A DNA stretch of 64,000 nucleotides from Polycyclovorans sp. (GTDB lineage Bacteria > Pseudomonadota > Gammaproteobacteria > Nevskiales > Nevskiaceae): assembly GCA_002706265.1 (NCBI GenBank), contig PAKU01000026.1, positions 62,001 to 126,000 on the forward strand, written 5' to 3'. Each line of letters opens with the position of its first letter. Position 1 is the first letter of the stretch. A program made the translations under genes and the position numbers. Under the pieces are notes generated by a model. It did not search any database. It was given only the letters and a program-made list of their open reading frames with translations, and was not told the origin of the DNA. Below, piece after piece: positions 4,376 to 21,400 of the stretch.

Positions 4376-4710
4376 GCCGCCACCCCGATCAACCGATTCT
4401 GTTCGGCCAGCAGCTCGTCATCGGTGCCCCAATGCGCCCGGAATGGCTTCGCGCCACGCGCGAGGCTCGGCCCCATTGCAAGCTCTGCCATCTGCACCGG
4501 CAGAATCGAAACGCCGCGGTGATGCCATGGGCAAAGGCCGATGGTGTAGTCATGCCCACGGCGGCGGCCACAGTCGGTGATGTGATGGATCTCTGGCGGC
4601 TCATATACGTACAGCGTTTTGAGGCAGCAGATGCAACCGATTTCCTTGATCCGCTCGAAGCGGGCCTGTTGGGCCTTCGTGGCCTTGCCGGTGCTGTTGT
4701 GTAGGGTCAT
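4372..4710 (-). CDS. Ref-like RecA-dependent nuclease
   Basis: A 112-residue protein matching the nuclease core of the P1 Ref family, an HNH-type endonuclease that cuts DNA at RecA-made D-loops. Visible features are ARFERIKEIGCICC, PPEIHHI, GRRRGHDYTIGLCPWHHRG and the C-terminal helix DDELLAEQNRLI. It lies next to NinB, a common pair in lambdoid phages, within overlapping early genes. Confidence 0.85.
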   Translation of the reverse strand: MTLHNSTGKATKAQQARFERIKEIGCICCLKTLYVYEPPEIHHITDCGRRRGHDYTIGLCPWHHRGVSILPVQMAELAMGPSLARGAKPFRAHWGTDDELLAEQNRLIGVAA

Positions 4711-5147
4711 GCCGCCCGCTCCTGTTCAGCCTGCATCAGCGACTGAAACTCAGGGTCGGACCACACAACGCCACGGTCATTGCCGAACGCATACATGAGG
4801 TCGATCAAGTCGCCCATCTCCGCAATCGTCATCTTGCTGGTGCGCTGCCCGAGAATGACGAAGCCGCCATCGATTCCCATGGCGACGCGCTGGTGACGTT
4901 TCAGGCCAGCCGACAGCACATGCTTCCAGTCATCCGGCGTGAGGCGCTGCATGCGGCCGTCAACCGGCCATTCCACCTGCCGGGCGATGTCGCCCAACAT
5001 GGCCCACATTCGTCGGTTTTGGACCGCGCTCCGCGTGTCCCGGTGCGCCTTGAGCGTGATGTCCTGCGGCCCCTGCGTCTCGACGGCCTCCATGATCTGG
5101 CGCCAGACGCGGGCGAGGCTTTCGCGGGTTGCTGTGAGGGTGGTCAT
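4707..5147 (-). CDS. ninB: NinB-family recombination protein
   Basis: A 146-residue protein resembling lambda NinB (Orf), which binds single-stranded DNA and SSB and replaces RecFOR functions during phage recombination. Recognisable parts are RSAVQNRRMWAMLGDIARQV, LTPDDWKHVL and GFVILGQRTSKMTIAEMGDL. It overlaps the methyltransferase stop and the Ref-like start, placing it in a recombination segment of the early operon. Confidence 0.85.
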   Translation of the reverse strand: MTTLTATRESLARVWRQIMEAVETQGPQDITLKAHRDTRSAVQNRRMWAMLGDIARQVEWPVDGRMQRLTPDDWKHVLSAGLKRHQRVAMGIDGGFVILGQRTSKMTIAEMGDLIDLMYAFGNDRGVVWSDPEFQSLMQAEQERAA

Positions 5148-6289
5148 GCGGCCACCTCGGCGAATAGGGGCATCGTCGCGGCCGCGATACGTGCCTTGGC
5201 GATCTCCGCGTATTCAGCGTCGCGCTCGATGCCGACGAACCCAAAGCCTTCAATCACCGCAGCTTTCCCAGTGCTGCCGCTGCCCATAAACGGATCGAGC
5301 ACCGCGCCGCCCGGTGGGGTCACCAGACGGCAGAGGTAGCGCATCAGGTCGGTAGGCTTCACGGTAGGGTGGGTGTTTCGCCGTGGACCGCTTTCTGCAC
5401 TCGGCGGCCTTTCGCCACGAGCCACACGGTAATCCTGATCCGTCCACTTGTTCCCGTTTGGGCGATGCACTGCGTCAAGATGCTCCAGCCCTTCTTCCCG
5501 ATCCTGCTTGCTGGCCTTGGCGCAGTAGAAGAAACGGGCGGCTGAGCCGCCGTTGTCTGCATGGCCAGCACCAACAAACGCACCACCCTTGCCGAACACG
5601 TTGGCGCCACTGGAGCCGAGCGAGGTGTTGTTATTGCGCGGCGCACCACTCGAAGCCCCCGTCACAGGAAACGCCGCCAGAACCTCGTCGCTGCCGTCAT
5701 GGATCAGGTTGGCGGGCCAGCGGCCAGCGTCGATATTTTCGATAGCGTGTCCGGTTCGCGCCCACGAGCCGCTTCGATCTTCTGTCCCGTCCGGGTTCTT
5801 TGGATATTCGGCTTGCCCTGACCGCTTCGTCGCCCCTTCCGTGCCTACCCGGCACCCATCAACATTGATCGCCCCGGTGCCATACTCCAGCACGTTCGCT
5901 GCTACCGTGCCGATGAGAGGCTTGCGGGCGACGGTGATCGGTTCTAGCGCGGGCTTCAGCGCGGTCCCGCCCCACTCGCCGTTGTGCGACTTTGGGAATC
6001 CGGAGCCATAGACCCACGCGATCATGTCCCGAATCTCGAAACCGGCGTCCTCGATGCGAACTGCCATGCGGTGTTGCGTGCGCGTGCCAGCGAACGCCAG
6101 CAGGTGGCCGCCCGGTTTCAGCACGCGCAAGCACTCGGCCCATATCTCAGTGCTCGGCACGTCGTAGTCCCACTTCTTGCCCATGAACGAAAGGCCGTAT
6201 GGAGGATCGGTCACCACTGCGTCGGCGCTGCAATCCGGCAGATCACGCATTGCTGTCAAGCAATCGCCAGTGATGATTCGCACGCTCAT
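5144..6289 (-). CDS. DNA (N4/N6) methyltransferase
   Basis: A 381-residue amino-methyltransferase. DPPYGLSFMGKKWD near residue 30 is the catalytic motif IV, and DPFMGSGSTGKA near residue 340 is the AdoMet-binding motif I, which gives class-beta order. TVKPTDLMRYL just before motif I is typical of DpnA/CcrM-type enzymes. No restriction endonuclease gene is adjacent, so it is probably an orphan phage methylase that protects phage DNA or affects expression. The target site cannot be read from sequence. Confidence 0.9.
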   Translation of the reverse strand: MSVRIITGDCLTAMRDLPDCSADAVVTDPPYGLSFMGKKWDYDVPSTEIWAECLRVLKPGGHLLAFAGTRTQHRMAVRIEDAGFEIRDMIAWVYGSGFPKSHNGEWGGTALKPALEPITVARKPLIGTVAANVLEYGTGAINVDGCRVGTEGATKRSGQAEYPKNPDGTEDRSGSWARTGHAIENIDAGRWPANLIHDGSDEVLAAFPVTGASSGAPRNNNTSLGSSGANVFGKGGAFVGAGHADNGGSAARFFYCAKASKQDREEGLEHLDAVHRPNGNKWTDQDYRVARGERPPSAESGPRRNTHPTVKPTDLMRYLCRLVTPPGGAVLDPFMGSGSTGKAAVIEGFGFVGIERDAEYAEIAKARIAAATMPLFAEVAA

Positions 6290-8249: not shown

Positions 8250-9174
8250 TGGCGGCCCCTGGTCCGGGGAATGCCCGGTTGTTTTCGTCGATGATGCGCT
8301 GCTCCCACTCGGGGATAGCCTGCCCGGCTGCCTGCTGGTCCTTGCACCAATCGCCCTTGAACCCGCGCCAAGCATTCTCCGCAGCCATCTTCACGGCCTG
8401 AGCCGGTGAAAGCCCGGCGGAAGCCGCCTCTCGCTTCACCGCCTCCCATGCGCTCACGGTCAGCGGCGCCCGATGCTTCGCCCTCACTGCCAGCCAGTCC
8501 ACGGCGTGCTGGTCGTTCACCCCTTCCGCCGCCATCTGCTTGGCCGTCACGGTTTTGGATTTCTTGGGCGTTGGGGAATCATCGCCGCCATCAGGCGGCA
8601 AGCGCACTTCGGTGCGCGTGTCTTTTGCTTTTTCTTCTTTTGGAAACGGTAACGGAGACGGAGACGGAGACGGAGACGGTAACGGAGACGGGGCACTGCC
8701 AAAACCTGCCAATGGCATGCCACTGGCACTATCTTGGCACTGTGTTTCGGTGCTACCCGCATGCGTCGAGCTTGCTTCTAGCAACTTTTCTGCATAGTCG
8801 GGCATGAGCTTGGCAGCAGATTTCCGTCCGTGTTGCTTGCACAGCGCAGCCCACCGAGACTTCTCTGAGCGCGCTTCGGCACCCGCAGCCCAAGGGTTAT
8901 GTTCTGCCCAGTCGTGGACGCTTCGCGTGCCCTCTGCGCCATCCAGAAATCCGACATCAGCAAGCGCGGCGACAAAAGCCCCAGGCTCGCCAGTCCAGTC
9001 AACGGCGAGCTCGATGTCCTCGTCGGTCAAGCCTTCCAGATCGCCAGATGATCGGTTGCCAGCCACCCATAGGAATAGGCAGACCAACCTGAACGCGCCA
9101 CCCTCACCAATGCGGCGGATGAGCTTTTTGGTTTTCGGATGACGCGGCAGTTCGAGCGAAATGCGGGCGTCCAT
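8236..9174 (-). CDS. Phage replisome organizer / replication initiation protein
   Basis: A 312-residue protein. The N-terminal 100 residues (ISLELPRHPKTKKLIRRIG...FRLVCLFLWVA) match the winged-helix N-terminus of phage replisome organizers. A low-complexity linker rich in Pro-Ser (residues about 160-178) is encoded by a hexamer tandem repeat. The C-terminus (AWEAVKREAASAGLSPAQAV, AWRGFKGDW) is a DnaT/DnaC-loader-like helical segment. It overlaps the primase-helicase start by 14 bases, so the two are likely made together and act at the phage origin. Confidence 0.75.
   Translation of the reverse strand: MDARISLELPRHPKTKKLIRRIGEGGAFRLVCLFLWVAGNRSSGDLEGLTDEDIELAVDWTGEPGAFVAALADVGFLDGAEGTRSVHDWAEHNPWAAGAEARSEKSRWAALCKQHGRKSAAKLMPDYAEKLLEASSTHAGSTETQCQDSASGMPLAGFGSAPSPLPSPSPSPSPLPFPKEEKAKDTRTEVRLPPDGGDDSPTPKKSKTVTAKQMAAEGVNDQHAVDWLAVRAKHRAPLTVSAWEAVKREAASAGLSPAQAVKMAAENAWRGFKGDWCKDQQAAGQAIPEWEQRIIDENNRAFPGPGAANASH
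8644..8693. repeat. Hexamer tandem repeat (GGAGAC with GGTAAC variants)
   Basis: About eight consecutive 6-base units, GGTAAC or GGAGAC, lie inside the replisome organizer gene. On the coding strand they give alternating Pro-Ser and Pro-Leu pairs. Because the unit is six bases, changes in copy number keep the frame and alter only linker length. Confidence 0.9.
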
Positions 9175-9365
9175 CAGATCTCTACACCCAGCTCAACCAT
9201 GATCGATGCGGCGCGAAACGCTGCTTCAAATCCGGCCTTCCTCTCTGCTGAAAACTCCATGTCCATGTCGCCCCAGCCAGTCAGATCAGACAAAAGCTGC
9301 ATCACTGCCGGATGCGCCATCGCTGCTTTGGCAAGCTGCGCCGCCTCACTTAATTCATCTGCCAT
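9174..9365 (-). CDS. Small phage protein, 63 residues
   Basis: Helical protein (MADELSEAAQLAKAAMAHPAV...). Of two close ATGs I chose 9365 because GAGGAA lies about eight bases upstream. Its TGA overlaps the replisome organizer ATG (TGATG). Function unknown. The 160 bases between this gene and the next upstream one (9366-9530) hold no frame I would call. Confidence 0.5.
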   Translation of the reverse strand: MADELSEAAQLAKAAMAHPAVMQLLSDLTGWGDMDMEFSAERKAGFEAAFRAASIMVELGVEI

Positions 9366-9530
9366 GCTCATTTCCTCGCCATCCAGAGAAAAGGCCCCGG
9401 CGTGAGGGCGCGGGATGGCAGCGCGCCCTCCGGTGTTGCAACACCGTGCCGAGATAGTCGTTGCGGGCGCTCACACGCCCTCCCTGTCCGCAATGCTGCG
9501 GATGGCCCGCTCGTAATCGGCAGGGCTTGC

Positions 9531-9797
9531 CTATGGGTTCGCGTGGACCCAATCGGCCTTGCTCATTTCGTACCGCTGATGCGCCGTGTGCTCGCGGCAG
9601 AATCGCTCCGCATGCGGCCAACAGACGTCGGCATACCAAGATTGATCGGCGCGCTTGCGCGATGCGATGCTCTTGCCGCTGACGCCGATTGAGCAGGTGC
9701 CAGCGCCCGCTTCGGGATTGATCGCGTCGGGCACGAAGTGCGAGCAATCGACGCACCTTGTCCAAGCGCTATCCACGTTCGCGCGCCTCAAGTGCAT
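9531..9797 (-). CDS. Cysteine-containing phage protein, putative zinc finger
   Basis: About 88 residues with a CVDCSHF motif near the N-terminus, a later CSIGV, and WYADVCWPHAERFC, together a likely zinc-binding arrangement seen in small phage proteins. The ATG at 9797 has GGAG four bases upstream and overlaps the preceding gene by 29 bases; a GTG at 9776 would give a shorter overlap and may be the real start. Role unknown. Confidence 0.55.
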   Translation of the reverse strand: MHLRRANVDSAWTRCVDCSHFVPDAINPEAGAGTCSIGVSGKSIASRKRADQSWYADVCWPHAERFCREHTAHQRYEMSKADWVHANP

Positions 9798-9987
9798 CAA
9801 GCTCCATTTGCAACCGATTCCGCTCACGCGCCGTCAGCCGCGCGCCACGAAGCTGCAGTTCCAGCTCCCGGCGCTCCTGTGATCTGGGCACCGAACGCAG
9901 CGCCACGGGCTTCGAAGGATGGCCCTGGCGCGGCTTGCGCGGGCGAGCGCTGAACTCCAAGCGCGGAAAGCGGGCGGGCGTGGTCAT
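9769..9987 (-). CDS. Small basic phage protein, 72 residues
   Basis: Arginine-rich protein (MTTPARFPRLEFSARPRKPR...) with a C-terminal coiled-coil-like helix (RERNRLQMELDALEARERG). It overlaps the CII-like gene upstream by ATGA. Function unknown; its charge suggests nucleic-acid contact. Confidence 0.5.
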   Translation of the reverse strand: MTTPARFPRLEFSARPRKPRQGHPSKPVALRSVPRSQERRELELQLRGARLTARERNRLQMELDALEARERG

Positions 9988-10394
9988 GCGGCGCGGGTGT
10001 CGCGCAGAAAGCTTTTGATCGTCGCCAACTCGGCTTCGGCGGCTTCGCGCTTCTCGCGCTCCTGCCGCAAACGGCCCTCTAATTCGCTCTCACGCTTGCG
10101 CAGCGATGTCGGGTCATAGCCCCGGCTGTAGGCCAGCCAGAGAAGCGGCAGGTCGGTCCCTGTGGCATCCATCAGGCGATCCAGAAAATCGCCCTTTATC
10201 CCGGCGTCGCCCTGCTTGATGCGTGCCCATGTCGGAGCATCAACGCCGGTATCGATTGCAACCACCTTGTCATAGCTGCCGGACATCTCAGCGGCCCGCG
10301 CACAAGCGTGATGCAGGCTGCGGATATTCGGCAAAATCGACAGGTCGATTTGCAGTGCCGGGCGCTTAACGCGCAGGTCCAATTGCATGTCCAT
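9984..10394 (-). CDS. Putative phage regulator (CII-like position)
   Basis: About 136 residues starting MDMQLDLRVKRPALQIDL. The middle (SLHHACARAAEMSGSYDKVV, DAPTWARIKQGDAGI) looks like a helix-turn-helix core, and the C-terminus (LRKRESELEGRLRQEREKRE) is a coiled coil. It is the second gene of the leftward operon after the Cro-like gene, where lambdoid phages carry CII-type activators. Function is inferred from position and the possible DNA-binding fold. Confidence 0.5.
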   Translation of the reverse strand: MDMQLDLRVKRPALQIDLSILPNIRSLHHACARAAEMSGSYDKVVAIDTGVDAPTWARIKQGDAGIKGDFLDRLMDATGTDLPLLWLAYSRGYDPTSLRKRESELEGRLRQEREKREAAEAELATIKSFLRDTRAA

Positions 10395-10571
10395 GGGCGA
10401 CCTACAAGGAAATTGCGTTGCGTTGTAAGTCGGAATCAGGGCAAAAAAAGGCCCATGAATACGAGCGAACACGACGCGAGGAATAAAAGGCCCGACGCGC
10501 GATCTGGAGAACACGCGCCGGGGAATCGCCCTGCCCCGCGAGGGGTGACGGGACAGGGAGAGGAGAAAGGT
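10395..10571. other. Gap between Cro-like and CII-like genes
   Basis: No coding frame is convincing here. On the minus strand there is a CCCCTCGCGGGGC hairpin near 10540 and a run of seven T near 10440, which could act as an early terminator before the CII-like gene. Not strong enough to call separately. Confidence 0.35.
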
Positions 10572-10778
10572 TCACGCCGCCTCGCTGGTGGAGGGGGTGC
10601 TACGGATGAGGGATTGATGCAGCGCCAACAAACTGATGGCGGCATCTGCGCGCGGGGCGGCGGTTCGCCCTTTGATAATTTCACGCACTGCATTGGCAGT
10701 TACGCCCATGTGCCGAGCGATGGAATCGACCGATTCGCCGCTCAACATCAGTTCATCAATTCGCTGTTTCCATGTCAT
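10572..10778 (-). CDS. Cro-like repressor
   Basis: A 68-residue helix-turn-helix protein: WKQRIDELMLSGESVDSIAR, then HMGVTANAVREIIKGRTA. It is the first gene of the leftward operon and faces the CI-like repressor across a 73-base region with three inverted-repeat operators, the classic lytic/lysogenic switch arrangement. It would compete with the repressor for those sites after induction. Confidence 0.8.
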   Translation of the reverse strand: MTWKQRIDELMLSGESVDSIARHMGVTANAVREIIKGRTAAPRADAAISLLALHQSLIRSTPSTSEAA

Positions 10779-10788
10779 GCAACCTAAT

Positions 10789-10841
10789 TTACAGGATACT
10801 GTAAGCGCACGTCAACAGCATTCTGTTACAGCGTTCTGTGA
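10789..10841. promoter_or_regulatory. Three-site operator array between cro-like and cI-like genes
   Basis: Three copies of ACAG-N4-CTGT: 10789-10804 (TTACAG GATA CTGTAA, a perfect arm match), 10813-10828 (CAACAG CATT CTGTTA) and 10826-10841 (TTACAG CGTT CTGTGA). Sites two and three are 13 bases apart centre to centre and overlap at their edges; site one is 24 bases from site two. They occupy the divergent promoter region, so they are almost certainly the CI/Cro operators. Confidence 0.85.
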
Positions 10842-10851
10842 CTATCGGCGC

Positions 10852-11298
10852 ATGGAATCGGTAGGTGACAGAATCAAGAAAGCACGCGCGCGCGCAGGCA
10901 TGTCGCGCACCGAGCTTTCTAAGCGCTCGAAGGTCGGCTATAGCACCATCGCTGAAATCGAGAACGGCGGCATGCGCTCATCGACAAAGTTGCACCAGTT
11001 GGCGGCCCCGCTAGGAGTCTCGGTTGAATACCTAGCAACAGGAAAGGAGGCGCCGACATTGGCGCTCCCCGCTCCACCCCTTGCCATTGCGGGGCCAGCT
11101 TCTACAAGCGAAACCCGTCGCATTCAGCAGCGTGAAGGCGGATGGATCGGGGCCAAGATGACGCCCGCCCAGCAATCCCTATTGCGCGCCGTCGAACTGA
11201 TGGGGCGAACAATCCCCGACGAACGTGCCAAGGCGCTCGCCGAGCTGGTGCTGTTGTCTGGAGGGCCTGTCGACGCGCCGCCAAAAATCACGGCATGA
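10852..11298 (+). CDS. CI-like prophage repressor without a cleavage domain
   Basis: A 148-residue XRE-family repressor. The helix-turn-helix is at residues 7-45 (RIKKARARAGMSRTELSKRS, VGYSTIAEIENGG). The rest is a proline/alanine linker and a helical tail (LLRAVELMGRTIPDERAKALAEL). I see no S24/LexA-type Ala-Gly or Ser-Lys autocleavage domain, so RecA-driven self-cleavage is unlikely and induction probably works another way. Its TGA overlaps the ATG of the next gene, so repressor and downstream cassette share a transcript. Confidence 0.82.
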   Translation: MESVGDRIKKARARAGMSRTELSKRSKVGYSTIAEIENGGMRSSTKLHQLAAPLGVSVEYLATGKEAPTLALPAPPLAIAGPASTSETRRIQQREGGWIGAKMTPAQQSLLRAVELMGRTIPDERAKALAELVLLSGGPVDAPPKITA

Positions 11299-11969
11299 CC
11301 TATCCCGCCGCCCTCGCCCTCGCCGCCCGCTACGGCCTGCAACGCGAGTTTGCGATGTCGTACCGGCAGGTCCGCCCCTGGTGGGCGTTTTGGATCAGCG
11401 AGGAGCGTGCGGTATGGTCTGCGCTGGTGGATTGTGATTTGCAGGGGCATCGAGTGACAAGCAAAAATGATGATTCGCTGACCGAGCAGATCAGGGCAAA
11501 AGTGCGCCAACGCAAAACCGACGATTTTCTTCGGGAGAACGCTGCCGCCGTAGCCGAAGCGGAGCGCATAGCCAAGATTCAGCGCTCTCGCGACAGAGAA
11601 GACCTATCGATCAAAGTAGGTGTATCGCTTGCCACCGTGGTCATTGCGCTATCTGCTGTCTGGCTTTTCTTTGGGCCGGACGCCCCAGCGCCTCCGAAAA
11701 CCGATGCCGAGATTCGGCACGACGAACTGTCGATTGGGTTCAGCGTCTGGAATGGCTCACACATCGAGCTGACGCAACGAATCAAGGCGGCCATGAACGA
11801 CCCTGATTCGTACGAGCATGTGGACACGCGATACCGTGACAACGGCGATCATCTAATCGTCACCACGTCCTTTCGCGGCGCCAACGCTTTCGGCGGCAAG
11901 GTGGTCAACACCTGGACGGCCAGAACAGCGATTGACGGGCGAGTGTTGCAGATCATCTCCACGCAGTAG
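11295..11969 (+). CDS. Membrane-anchored protein in the lysogeny operon, unknown function
   Basis: 224 residues. The N-terminal part contains a tryptophan-rich patch (RPWWAFWISEE). One transmembrane helix is visible near residues 112-132 (VGVSLATVVIALSAVWLFF). The C-terminal domain (MNDPDSYEHVDTRY, FRGANAFGGKVVNTWTA) matches a small uncharacterised domain that recurs at the end of many bacterial membrane and zinc-ribbon proteins. It overlaps the repressor stop by ATGA, so it should be made in the lysogen. A superinfection-exclusion or defence role is possible but is inference from position. Confidence 0.65.
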   Translation: MTYPAALALAARYGLQREFAMSYRQVRPWWAFWISEERAVWSALVDCDLQGHRVTSKNDDSLTEQIRAKVRQRKTDDFLRENAAAVAEAERIAKIQRSRDREDLSIKVGVSLATVVIALSAVWLFFGPDAPAPPKTDAEIRHDELSIGFSVWNGSHIELTQRIKAAMNDPDSYEHVDTRYRDNGDHLIVTTSFRGANAFGGKVVNTWTARTAIDGRVLQIISTQ

Positions 11970-11988
11970 CGCGACCACGGAGCGACAA

Positions 11989-12591
11989 ATGAAAACCGCA
12001 ATGCAAGCAATTCTGTTGTCCTGCATCTTCATCTGTGCAGCCGCCACGGCTAATCCCAAAATTACGCCCGGCGCTGACTTGCCGGTCACCCGCAGCGGAT
12101 ACCCCAAGACGTTCGAGCGCTGGGGCGAAGCTGGCGTGGCTCGCATCAACAAAGCCATCAAAAACGGTGCTCAAACTGTGGCGGCCAATAGCAAATGCGA
12201 CAAGGTGGAAATTGTCGCCCTGTCTGATGGTCGATCATCCCCTCCGAACAACATCGTCCTGTTTGCAGACTGCCGCAATGGCGAGCGCTTCTATCTCACA
12301 GAGGCACAAGCGAACCAGCGGGCGGCTACGGCCTCTCAGTCTCAGAAGCTCGCAGGGATCAGCAAGGGTGATGCGATTGTCAAATGCCGCGATGCTATCC
12401 GGGCAAACCTCGCAGTTCCCAGCAGCTTCAACCCCGCCACGCTTTCGACCCAAGCGATAAGCAACAAAACAACCGGCACGTGGCTTGTCACGATGAAGTT
12501 CAAAAGCAAAAACCGCATGGGTCAGGAGCTGCCAGGCAATGCGGAGTGTTCTGTCTCAGGCGATGGCCCGCCGCAGGTCACCATAAACTGA
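11989..12591 (+). CDS. Secreted protein in the lysogeny operon, unknown function
   Basis: A 200-residue protein with a clear signal peptide (AMQAILLSCIFICAAATANP, cleavage likely after ATA). Mature cysteines occur as KCDK, DCRN, KCRD and NAECS, probably forming disulfides in the periplasm. The C-terminal half (VKCRDAIRANLAVPSSFNP, WLVTMKFKSKN) resembles the small domain of the preceding membrane protein, with a similar xxxPxSF/DPxSY motif. The gene follows that protein by 19 bases and is followed by a terminator. Confidence 0.65.
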   Translation: MKTAMQAILLSCIFICAAATANPKITPGADLPVTRSGYPKTFERWGEAGVARINKAIKNGAQTVAANSKCDKVEIVALSDGRSSPPNNIVLFADCRNGERFYLTEAQANQRAATASQSQKLAGISKGDAIVKCRDAIRANLAVPSSFNPATLSTQAISNKTTGTWLVTMKFKSKNRMGQELPGNAECSVSGDGPPQVTIN

Positions 12592-12608
12592 CGGCCTTTC
12601 GGCTCACC

Positions 12609-12635
12609 TAACCCCGCCAAGTGCGGGGTTTTTTG
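12609..12635 (+). terminator. Terminator of the lysogeny operon
   Basis: AACCCCGC pairs with GCGGGGTT around a five-base loop, followed by a T run. It ends the repressor-cassette transcript before the second operator pair. Confidence 0.85.
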
Positions 12636-12674
12636 TGGGCGCTAGCTAAGTGGTTGATTTGCCTTGAATCATAA

Positions 12675-12713
12675 TTACAGAATCCTGTTGCATGCGCCTA
12701 CAGCTTTCTGTAA
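12675..12713. promoter_or_regulatory. Second repressor operator pair, upstream of the rightward early genes
   Basis: Two more copies of the immunity operator: 12675-12690 (TTACAG AATC CTGTTG) and 12698-12713 (CTACAG CTTT CTGTAA), 23 bases apart centre to centre. They lie 43 bases before the first rightward gene and match the sites between cro and cI, so the same repressor should silence this promoter. Confidence 0.85.
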
Positions 12714-12755
12714 TATGTACTCCATCGCCCCACCACGGGCCGAATGGAGAACGAG

Positions 12756-13103
12756 ATGGCACGCAAGACTTACACCACCCCCGAGCAGGAAGCCCGCGAA
12801 GAACTCGCAATCGAGGCCACCTACGGAGAGGACTCAGGCGACTGGCTGGCCCGCTATTTCAAGGCCGAGGCGAACGACAACAGCCTCGCCGCCGATGTGT
12901 TCATGGACGAGCTGAACGACGCCCTGATCAACAACAGCAACGACATCATCGGCATCGTTTTCAAAGAGCGTTATCGCGCCTTCATCGCCGCCAACCTGGA
13001 CGACGAACAGGTGTGGGACCGCATGCGCAAAAACCGTCTGGCCGATGAGGAATATGCGGCTGATGAGCGTTATGCGGCTCTACGCGATGAGGTGGAAGCA
13101 TGA
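12756..13103 (+). CDS. First gene of the rightward early operon, unknown function
   Basis: 115 acidic residues starting MARKTYTTPEQEAREEL. The ATG at 12756 has GGAG six bases upstream and is preferred over the in-frame ATG at 12744. The protein is rich in Asp, Glu and Ala, and predicted helical. It follows the second operator pair and so is likely an immediate-early product. No family recognised. Confidence 0.6.
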   Translation: MARKTYTTPEQEAREELAIEATYGEDSGDWLARYFKAEANDNSLAADVFMDELNDALINNSNDIIGIVFKERYRAFIAANLDDEQVWDRMRKNRLADEEYAADERYAALRDEVEA

Positions 13104-13270
13104 TCCGCGCCCTCATCAATCTGCTGATCAACAACCCCCTGCCGGAGTGGGCAGACCTGCCCGATGGCTGGGAGCCCAACCCGGCAACCGTCGGGCGGAT
13201 CGCTCGCGAAGCCGACGCACTGCGGGCCAATGGCGAGCGGAATGCGGCGGTTCTGGGGGGTGGCAAATGA
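13100..13270 (+). CDS. Small phage protein, 56 residues
   Basis: Starts MIRALINLLINNPLPEWADL and overlaps the previous gene by ATGA and the next one by ATGA. Hydrophobic N-terminus, then a helical basic tail. Position within an unbroken chain of overlaps is the main support. Function unknown. Confidence 0.5.
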   Translation: MIRALINLLINNPLPEWADLPDGWEPNPATVGRIAREADALRANGERNAAVLGGGK

Positions 13271-13596
13271 GTGCCCTGCGCATCAGGGGCTTTGACAGCG
13301 CCTATCCCGGCAGCATGTCTGAGCGCGAAGACGGCGGTTATGTCCAGCGCGACGACCCAGGAAGCCTCGCCGGCGCGTTGCTCGAACTTGTCCGGTCTGG
13401 CGATCGCGCGGCCCGAAACCTCCTCGACGATCTGGATCAAGCGGCGGCTGAGTTGGCGAAGGCAAACGCCCAGCGCGACAGTCTGCTGATAGCACTGATC
13501 GGCTGCGTCGAGCACATGGAGTGCAGCACTCCACAGGGCTTGAAAGCGTGTGACGACGCCGCCGCGCTGATTACTGCGATGGGCGGTGACGCATGA
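13267..13596 (+). CDS. Small phage protein, 109 residues
   Basis: Starts MSALRIRGFDSAYPGSMSER. A helical segment (ARNLLDDLDQAAAELAKANAQ) looks like a short coiled coil. Overlaps both neighbours by ATGA. Function unknown. Confidence 0.5.
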   Translation: MSALRIRGFDSAYPGSMSEREDGGYVQRDDPGSLAGALLELVRSGDRAARNLLDDLDQAAAELAKANAQRDSLLIALIGCVEHMECSTPQGLKACDDAAALITAMGGDA

Positions 13597-13808
13597 GCAC
13601 CCAAACCATCCGCGTCCGCCTCCCCGCCGACGCCAGCGCCATGAGCGTGACGATGGCCCTTGCCTCAGTCGCGCAACGCATGGGCTTTCGGCTCACGGCC
13701 ACGCACTCAGAGCCGGGCATCACCGACATCGACATGGTGCCCGGCTACGTGCCGAGCAACGTCATCCCCATGCGCCGGAGTGGCGCGATCAAAGGAGTTA
13801 AGTCGTGA
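13593..13808 (+). CDS. Small phage protein, 71 residues
   Basis: Starts MSTQTIRVRLPADASAMSV and looks like a compact alpha-beta protein. Its stop overlaps the GTG start of the next gene. Function unknown. Confidence 0.5.
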   Translation: MSTQTIRVRLPADASAMSVTMALASVAQRMGFRLTATHSEPGITDIDMVPGYVPSNVIPMRRSGAIKGVKS

Positions 13809-14608
13809 CAGCGATTGCAACCATTGAGCAGGCGCGTCCGCTTGTTCGGCAGGAAGGCCGGGCACTGACCGCACTCGACATCCGCGAACGGGTCAACACC
13901 ATTCAGCAGGTGATGAGCGCGGTCATGAAGCGCGACGTGCATTACGGCGTCATCCCCGGCTGCAAGAAGCCGAGCCTGTACAAGCCGGGCTCCGAAGTGC
14001 TTTTGGCCACCTTCCAGATCGCCACCAGCATTCAGGTGACAGACCTGTCTACGGACGACTGCATCCGTTACCAAGTTCGCGTCATCGGCACCCACTCACA
14101 GAGCGGCACGCTTCTCGGTGAGGGCATCGGCGAATGCTCATCCAACGAAGAGAAATACAAGTGGAAGAAGGCGTACGACGAAGAGTGGAACGCCACGCCT
14201 GAGAACCGCCGCCGCATCAAATTCGGCAATTACAAAGACAAGCAGGTCCGCACGGATCCGGCTGACGTGGCCAACACCATCCTCAAGATGGCGAAAAAGC
14301 GCGCACAGATCGACATGACGCTGACCGTGACCGGCGCGTCGGACTGCTTTGACCAGGACATCGAAGACCTGCCCGAACACCTGCGGCCGGCCGATGACGT
14401 GGGCCGCAACGCTGGGCTCATGCCATACGCCGACGACCAGTTCAAAAAGAACTTGCCTGCATGGCAGGCGGGCATCGCATCCGGCCAGTTCACAGCCGCC
14501 GACGTGATCAAGAAGGTCGAGACACGCGGCCTGCTGACCGACGAGCAGAAAAAGCAACTGACCGACACGAAGGTCAACCCACCGCAAGAACAGGAGATTC
14601 CTGAGTGA
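13805..14608 (+). CDS. Putative phage single-strand annealing/recombination protein
   Basis: 267 residues from a GTG start that overlaps the preceding stop. The conserved core reads MKRDVHYGVIPGCKKPSLYK, GSEVLLATFQIA and later ADVANTILKMAKKRAQIDMT, then TGASDCFDQDIEDL. This family is common in proteobacterial phages directly upstream of a YqaJ-type exonuclease, the layout of annealing protein plus exonuclease. That pairing is the basis for the functional guess; I cannot place it in the RecT, Erf or Rad52-like families by eye. Confidence 0.6.
   Translation: MTAIATIEQARPLVRQEGRALTALDIRERVNTIQQVMSAVMKRDVHYGVIPGCKKPSLYKPGSEVLLATFQIATSIQVTDLSTDDCIRYQVRVIGTHSQSGTLLGEGIGECSSNEEKYKWKKAYDEEWNATPENRRRIKFGNYKDKQVRTDPADVANTILKMAKKRAQIDMTLTVTGASDCFDQDIEDLPEHLRPADDVGRNAGLMPYADDQFKKNLPAWQAGIASGQFTAADVIKKVETRGLLTDEQKKQLTDTKVNPPQEQEIPE

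Positions 14609-19831: not shown

Positions 19832-21400
<1,569 letters not shown>

Follow-up and report, generated by a model that had tools for sequence, protein, structure and literature searches.

Gp15 of phage HK97 is a superinfection-exclusion moron whose effect depends on the tail tube and tape-measure genes (PMC10883804). Its gene, which has a terminator, lies directly upstream of the tape-measure gene, with a location of the product in the membrane or envelope, and the same position, with a terminator between the two genes in several cases, is shared by relatives of P0002, one of two proteins encoded behind the cI gene of a prophage in the window, i.e., the whole 64-kb stretch of DNA analyzed here. 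However, gp15 has 62 aa, one membrane span and no counterpart of the domain described below, whereas P0002 of the window is encoded behind cI. Direct similarity of either window family to gp15 was considered and rejected, as no sequence match was detectable.

In Streptococcus phage TP-J34, the exclusion lipoprotein Ltp belongs to the lysogeny module and blocks DNA injection (PMC3952083). Its gene lies close to cI, like the cassette formed by P0001 and P0002, and, as proposed for that cassette below, Ltp is made in the prophage and acts on DNA injection from outside the cytoplasmic membrane; Sie2009 of phage Tuc2009 is likewise a membrane protein that blocks injection. Both systems, however, belong to Gram-positive hosts, and sequence profiles of the two window families matched no solved chain in the PDB at E < 0.5. 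SieA of phage P22, a prophage-expressed inner-membrane exclusion protein acting against a periplasmic DNA conduit, also resembles the proposed cassette, but, compared by description, it crosses the membrane three times, and a periplasmic domain of the helix-plus-four-strand type is not known in it. The accessory gene bstA of phage BTP1 is located downstream of cI and transcribed from the repressor promoter (PMC7067206). Its likeness to the cassette is one of operon layout, and neither P0001 nor P0002 matched a PADLOC model.

Orf97 of phage 186 (Peduoviridae; PHROG 3403) shares with P0001 a homologous C-terminal part of ~85 residues and a membrane anchor N-terminal to this domain. The two proteins differ in their N-terminal regions, with two spans in Orf97 and one in P0001. 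They also differ in location: according to the GenBank record, 186 orf97 sits after tum in the SOS operon, between A and Q, whereas P0001 lies behind cI. The same record (NC_001317) states for orf97 that 'expression from plasmid blocks 186 infection'. The openly searchable literature yielded no paper that describes what Orf97 does. One report (PMC5322425) credits an antirepressor function to tum and orf97 jointly; it was set aside, as the work it cites is titled for Tum.

The window is part of a 3.2-Mb genome in 43 contigs. Its first 21.4 kb, together with 20 kb to the left, constitute an apparently complete prophage with genes for terminase, portal, major head protein, tape measure, primase/helicase, a Cro-like protein, cI, a RecE-like exonuclease and a large serine integrase. 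The tape-measure protein (L085) comprises 1611 aa. From the gene order and this long tape measure, that is, from genes alone, we read the phage as siphovirus-like (long-tailed). The features of the region, in window coordinates, are as follows:

10572-10778, minus strand: gene for a Cro-like HTH protein, divergent from cI (match to PHROG 6831, a transcriptional regulator, E 2.4e-5)
10791-10839: left operator cluster, three ACAGNNTNCTGT sites at 10791, 10815 and 10828
10852-11298, plus strand: cI-type repressor, P0003, 148 aa (HTH_3, E 2e-10)
11295-11969, plus strand: P0001, 224 aa, membrane-anchored, ATGA overlap with cI
11703-11966, plus strand: Orf97-like C-terminal domain of P0001, aa 137-224 (FSxWDGSH...NDPDSYEH...FRGxNAFGG)
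11989-12591, plus strand: P0002, 200 aa, exported, signal peptide, four invariant cysteines (PHROG 29597)
12349-12588, plus strand: P0002 C-terminal domain, aa 121-200, a homologue of the P0001 C-terminal domain (hhalign, structure models)
12610-12630, plus strand: intrinsic terminator of the cI-P0001-P0002 operon (AACCCCGCCAAGTGCGGGGTT-TTTT; 8-bp stem and T run)
12677-12711: right operator cluster, two ACAGNNTNCTGT sites at 12677 and 12700
19832-21367, plus strand: large serine integrase of the prophage (PHROG 95, E 1.7e-80)

The 3' end of the integrase ORF runs into an antisense tRNA-Met gene (21324-21400), and this tRNA gene is likely the right attachment site of the prophage. An Rfam search gave no match within positions 9000-14000 of the window.

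The layout proposed in an initial sequence-only reading, with a membrane-anchored protein overlapping cI, a secreted cysteine-containing protein, a closing terminator and flanking operator clusters, was borne out. At 11295-11298, the TGA of the ATGA stops cI and its ATG opens P0001; 19 bases separate the P0001 stop from the P0002 start at 11989, which is preceded by a GGAG motif. The pair is encoded with the repressor in the manner of Ltp-type lysogeny-module genes, by the overlap, the same operon and the terminator. The five ACAGNNTNCTGT palindromes in the two clusters flanking the cassette are the only ones in the window. Counted on both strands, the motif occurred 8 times versus 0.24 expected, and 8 was reached in 0 of 100 shuffles; with a trailing NA, these five sites are the only ones in the whole genome. 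Regulation is most simply pictured as one cI transcript that spans the three genes; the lytic operons, leftward and rightward, would be governed by the two operator clusters. A consensus search for the cI promoter yielded no strong candidate. We infer that P0001 and P0002 are made in lysogens because they would share a transcript with cI.

P0001 consists of a soluble N-terminal domain (residues 1-50), a long helix with one membrane span, and the C-terminal Orf97-like domain (~137-224). The span corresponds to a single hydrophobic segment at ~107-127 (best 19-residue hydropathy 2.33), with a net charge of +2 on its N side and -1 on its C side; the C-terminal domain is therefore predicted to face the periplasm. 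Residues 1-49 recur with 51% identity as a stand-alone short ORF in another genus (L004, 1501-1662), and P0001 therefore looks like a fusion of phage modules. The short ORF adjoins an AlpA-like gene and an integrase.

P0002 carries a predicted signal peptide, which in our reading is of the Sec type with cleavage at ATA|N; a weak lipobox-like LLSC is present at Cys12. Cysteines 70, 95, 133 and 187 are unchanged in 13 relatives, a pattern consistent with two disulphides, and the first domain contains the conserved CD...DCxNGERF. The match to PHROG 29597 (E 1.3e-30) covers residues 25-191, most of the protein.

The two proteins had been noted to end in a similar small domain (the DPDSY/VPSSF phrase). 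This similarity is true homology: in profile-profile comparison by hhalign, the C-terminal domains of P0001 and P0002 aligned with a probability of 92% and E 6.6e-7, against a best E of 0.0046 among 200 column-shuffled control profiles. Structure prediction, proposed in the sequence-only reading as a check, gave one fold for both, a helix and four strands, at high confidence (in P0001, helices 137-146 and 157-166, four strands, pLDDT mostly >93). In Foldseek searches against BFVD viral structures, both domain models retrieved the same phage proteins with a probability of ~1.0, e.g., A0A8S5TIZ9, A0A515MI67 (Gordonia phage Sidious) and A0A0K1LL51 (RcSpartan). A Foldseek search of P0002 against the PDB gave no match at E < 0.1, and the best VIA-align Z scores against solved structures were 6.8 for P0001 and 7.3 for P0002. 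A cystatin/NTF2-like arrangement was dropped as a relative, Z being <8 for both proteins, which indicates a general arrangement only. Neither protein was assigned to an accepted family by Pfam, NCBIfam or PADLOC (0 families in PADLOC); matches of P0002 to DUF5734, a CSL zinc finger and YPYG were rejected as lying under the family cut-offs.

The P0001 C-terminal domain corresponds to the C-terminus of Orf97 (hhalign E 4.2e-22; tblastn E 2e-11; PHROG 3403 E 4.8e-19). In P2-like prophages of E. coli and Enterobacter, orf97-type genes are found between replication gene A and portal gene Q, with or without tum, and the A-Q interval of the P2 family is a hotspot of anti-phage systems (PMC9122126). 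P0001 shares the domain but not this location, as it overlaps cI instead, and it is not a positional orthologue. Elsewhere, the domain is joined to other N-terminal parts, namely a zinc ribbon (L012-L014), a SHOCT-like part (L018, L020) or plain spans (L010, L011). Genes with the domain directly follow S24-type repressors in L013, L014, L018 and L030, and in Aeromonas phage LPM4 such a gene lies farther downstream of an S24-type repressor. The domain is not phage-specific, occurring also on conjugative plasmids and Bacteroidota chromosomes.

In seven Bacteroidota loci (L010 at 4531-5354, L011, L056, L057, L059, L060 and L068), the Orf97-type gene directly follows a conserved gene for a ~146-aa membrane protein that looks VanZ-like, with an ATGA overlap in most and a 2-base gap in L068. 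The domain is thus part of a second kind of two-gene cassette, which recurs in these loci.

A profile search of viral contigs with P0002 gave 25 loci. Most P0002 relatives adjoin a tape-measure gene on its upstream side: the tape-measure gene is directly downstream in L033, L036, L037, L044, L049 and L055 (PHROG E 1e-96 to 1e-202), and in phages Pm86 and VW-6S the relative directly precedes a gene annotated as tape measure. A terminator separates the two genes in L033, L037 and Pm86. P0002 of the window itself does not have this position. Two relatives (L035, L039) lie right behind a repressor-like HTH gene; in L039, the genes overlap by ATGA as in the window, and the HTH match is under the Pfam cut-off. 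Among 47 ORFs immediately upstream of relatives, HTH_3 was found in 5 and Peptidase_S24 in 4. Neither was among the 25 listed of 63 families in 98 control ORFs, so that up to one of each is possible there. We regard repressor adjacency as real, not dominant, and as supportive only. The relatives are anchored or exported in various ways (by one span or two spans, a lipobox or a signal peptide), yet in all relatives examined the domain is predicted to lie outside the inner membrane.

Apart from this prophage, the P0001-P0002 pair turned up only in viral contigs, as copies with 100% identity. An occurrence mainly outside prophages, which would have told against the sequence-only reading, was thus not observed; the Orf97 domain alone does occur outside them. 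In the sets examined, no other phage or element combined a P0001 relative with a P0002 relative, and none of 58 genomes of the same family contained a second copy of the cassette.

Taken together, these results suggest that the cassette probably restricts phages in some way. With slightly better than even confidence, we propose that P0001 and P0002 form a lysogeny-expressed superinfection-exclusion cassette that acts in the periplasm and blocks DNA injection, with the tape measure as the likeliest target. Transcribed with cI, both proteins would be present in lysogens. P0001 would be tethered to the inner membrane and expose its Orf97-type domain to the periplasm, P0002 would be exported and probably disulphide-bonded, and both would thereby display the small helix-plus-four-strand domain in the periplasm. 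There, the domain may encounter the injection machinery of an infecting phage and keep its DNA out; the tape-measure protein would be the most plausible point of contact, and the two proteins may cooperate. We favour exclusion at DNA entry, the mode of HK97 gp15, Ltp and P22 SieA, because it accounts best for the predicted lysogeny expression, the predicted periplasmic display, the Orf97 record and the tape-measure-adjacent relatives in combination. The sequence-only reading had named superinfection exclusion, beside defence and host fitness, on general grounds, and superinfection exclusion gains support from the 186 record and from the P0002 family, found both at the position of HK97 gp15 and behind repressor-like genes.

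Several points weigh against this proposal. The Orf97 phenotype is a single line in GenBank, and a block on overexpression may be unspecific. Phage 186 has a contractile tail, whereas the window phage is read as siphovirus-like, which makes a common target uncertain. Since the Orf97 domain also occurs on plasmids and Bacteroidota chromosomes, it may have a more general role. The slot beside the tape-measure gene can be open to any moron, and neither domain model has a clear solved relative at the Z scores given above.

A broader proposal is possible, and we put it forward only tentatively. A single undescribed family of periplasmic helix-plus-four-strand domains, carried on interchangeable anchors by temperate phages and P2-like prophages as well as by plasmids and mobile elements of Bacteroidota, might serve generally in exclusion by binding the tape measure or another ejection protein of incoming phages. 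The window would then hold a cooperating two-protein version, one protein membrane-bound and one released.

An unlikely alternative, though one to be taken seriously, is defence in which the membrane protein interferes after DNA entry, at assembly, lysis or abortive infection, or action of P0001 alone, like Orf97, with P0002 as an independent moron. The Orf97 record reads 'blocks infection' and leaves the step unspecified, and the separate occurrence of the two families outside this phage in the sets examined would fit independent action; however, the consistent placement of the domains outside the inner membrane and the location of the P0002 family beside the tape measure point to entry.

Genes linked to cI include factors for lysogenic conversion and host fitness. 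The cassette could accordingly serve envelope stress, surface change or plasmid entry exclusion, unrelated to phage resistance, and the presence of Orf97 domains on plasmids and, beside VanZ-like membrane genes, on Bacteroidota chromosomes would agree with such a role. We consider it distinctly improbable, given the Orf97 record, the hotspot between A and Q, and the P0002 relatives that repeatedly adjoin tape-measure genes. That the two genes are chance neighbours, co-transcribed by accident and of no effect in the lysogen, would be in line with their being unpaired elsewhere in the sets examined, but is very improbable in view of the homologous C-terminal domains, the conserved cysteines, the one operon and the one terminator. 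Least probable is a role in periplasmic immunity to bacteriocins or other proteins imported into the cell, as the superposition of the P0002 C-terminal domain on 2xgl, the immunity protein for colicin M (73 residues, Z 6.8, rmsd 2.7), is matched by ties with latexin, chemerin and designed proteins, may at Z <8 reflect a mere common arrangement, and has no counterpart in sequence similarity to solved chains at E < 0.5.

The cassette had also been put forward as a candidate for an undescribed system. This holds for the domain family and does not hold for the kind of function: the function class is already known, and the families are already numbered as PHROG 3403 and 29597, without function. In the openly searchable literature, no description was found of the homology of the two domains, of the Orf97 link or of the dual location in repressor operons and next to tape-measure genes. 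Both the domain family and the connection of Orf97 with the genes beside the tape measure appear to be undescribed. The little-used note on 186 Orf97 is now tied to these genes and to a domain family that is broad and has no name. If DNA entry is indeed stopped, many members of this family now listed as 'hypothetical' genes of phages, plasmids and prophages could be assigned to exclusion, and the domain would offer a new way to study the passage of tape-measure proteins through the periplasm.

Some database records of the relatives deserve comment. NZ_CP119142.1 (L092; Neisseria gonorrhoeae, 2.17 Mb) is filed as a plasmid and looks like a chromosome; here, the P0002 relative is followed by a KilA-N-like gene and by genes resembling terminase, an arrangement also seen in the L034 prophage, labelled Helicobacter. 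The latter belongs to BK070131 (L006, L034; labelled Helicobacter pametensis), which shares with the gonococcal locus the layout of a 135-aa gene, a P0002 relative and a KilA-N gene. This suggests that BK070131 is a Neisseria-type phage or that its host is mislabelled. On plasmid pPMA4326A (L094, 7740-7922), PLSDB lists the gene of a 60-aa HicA toxin as the resistance gene APH(3')-IIc with 100% identity, a label that looks like an annotation artefact.
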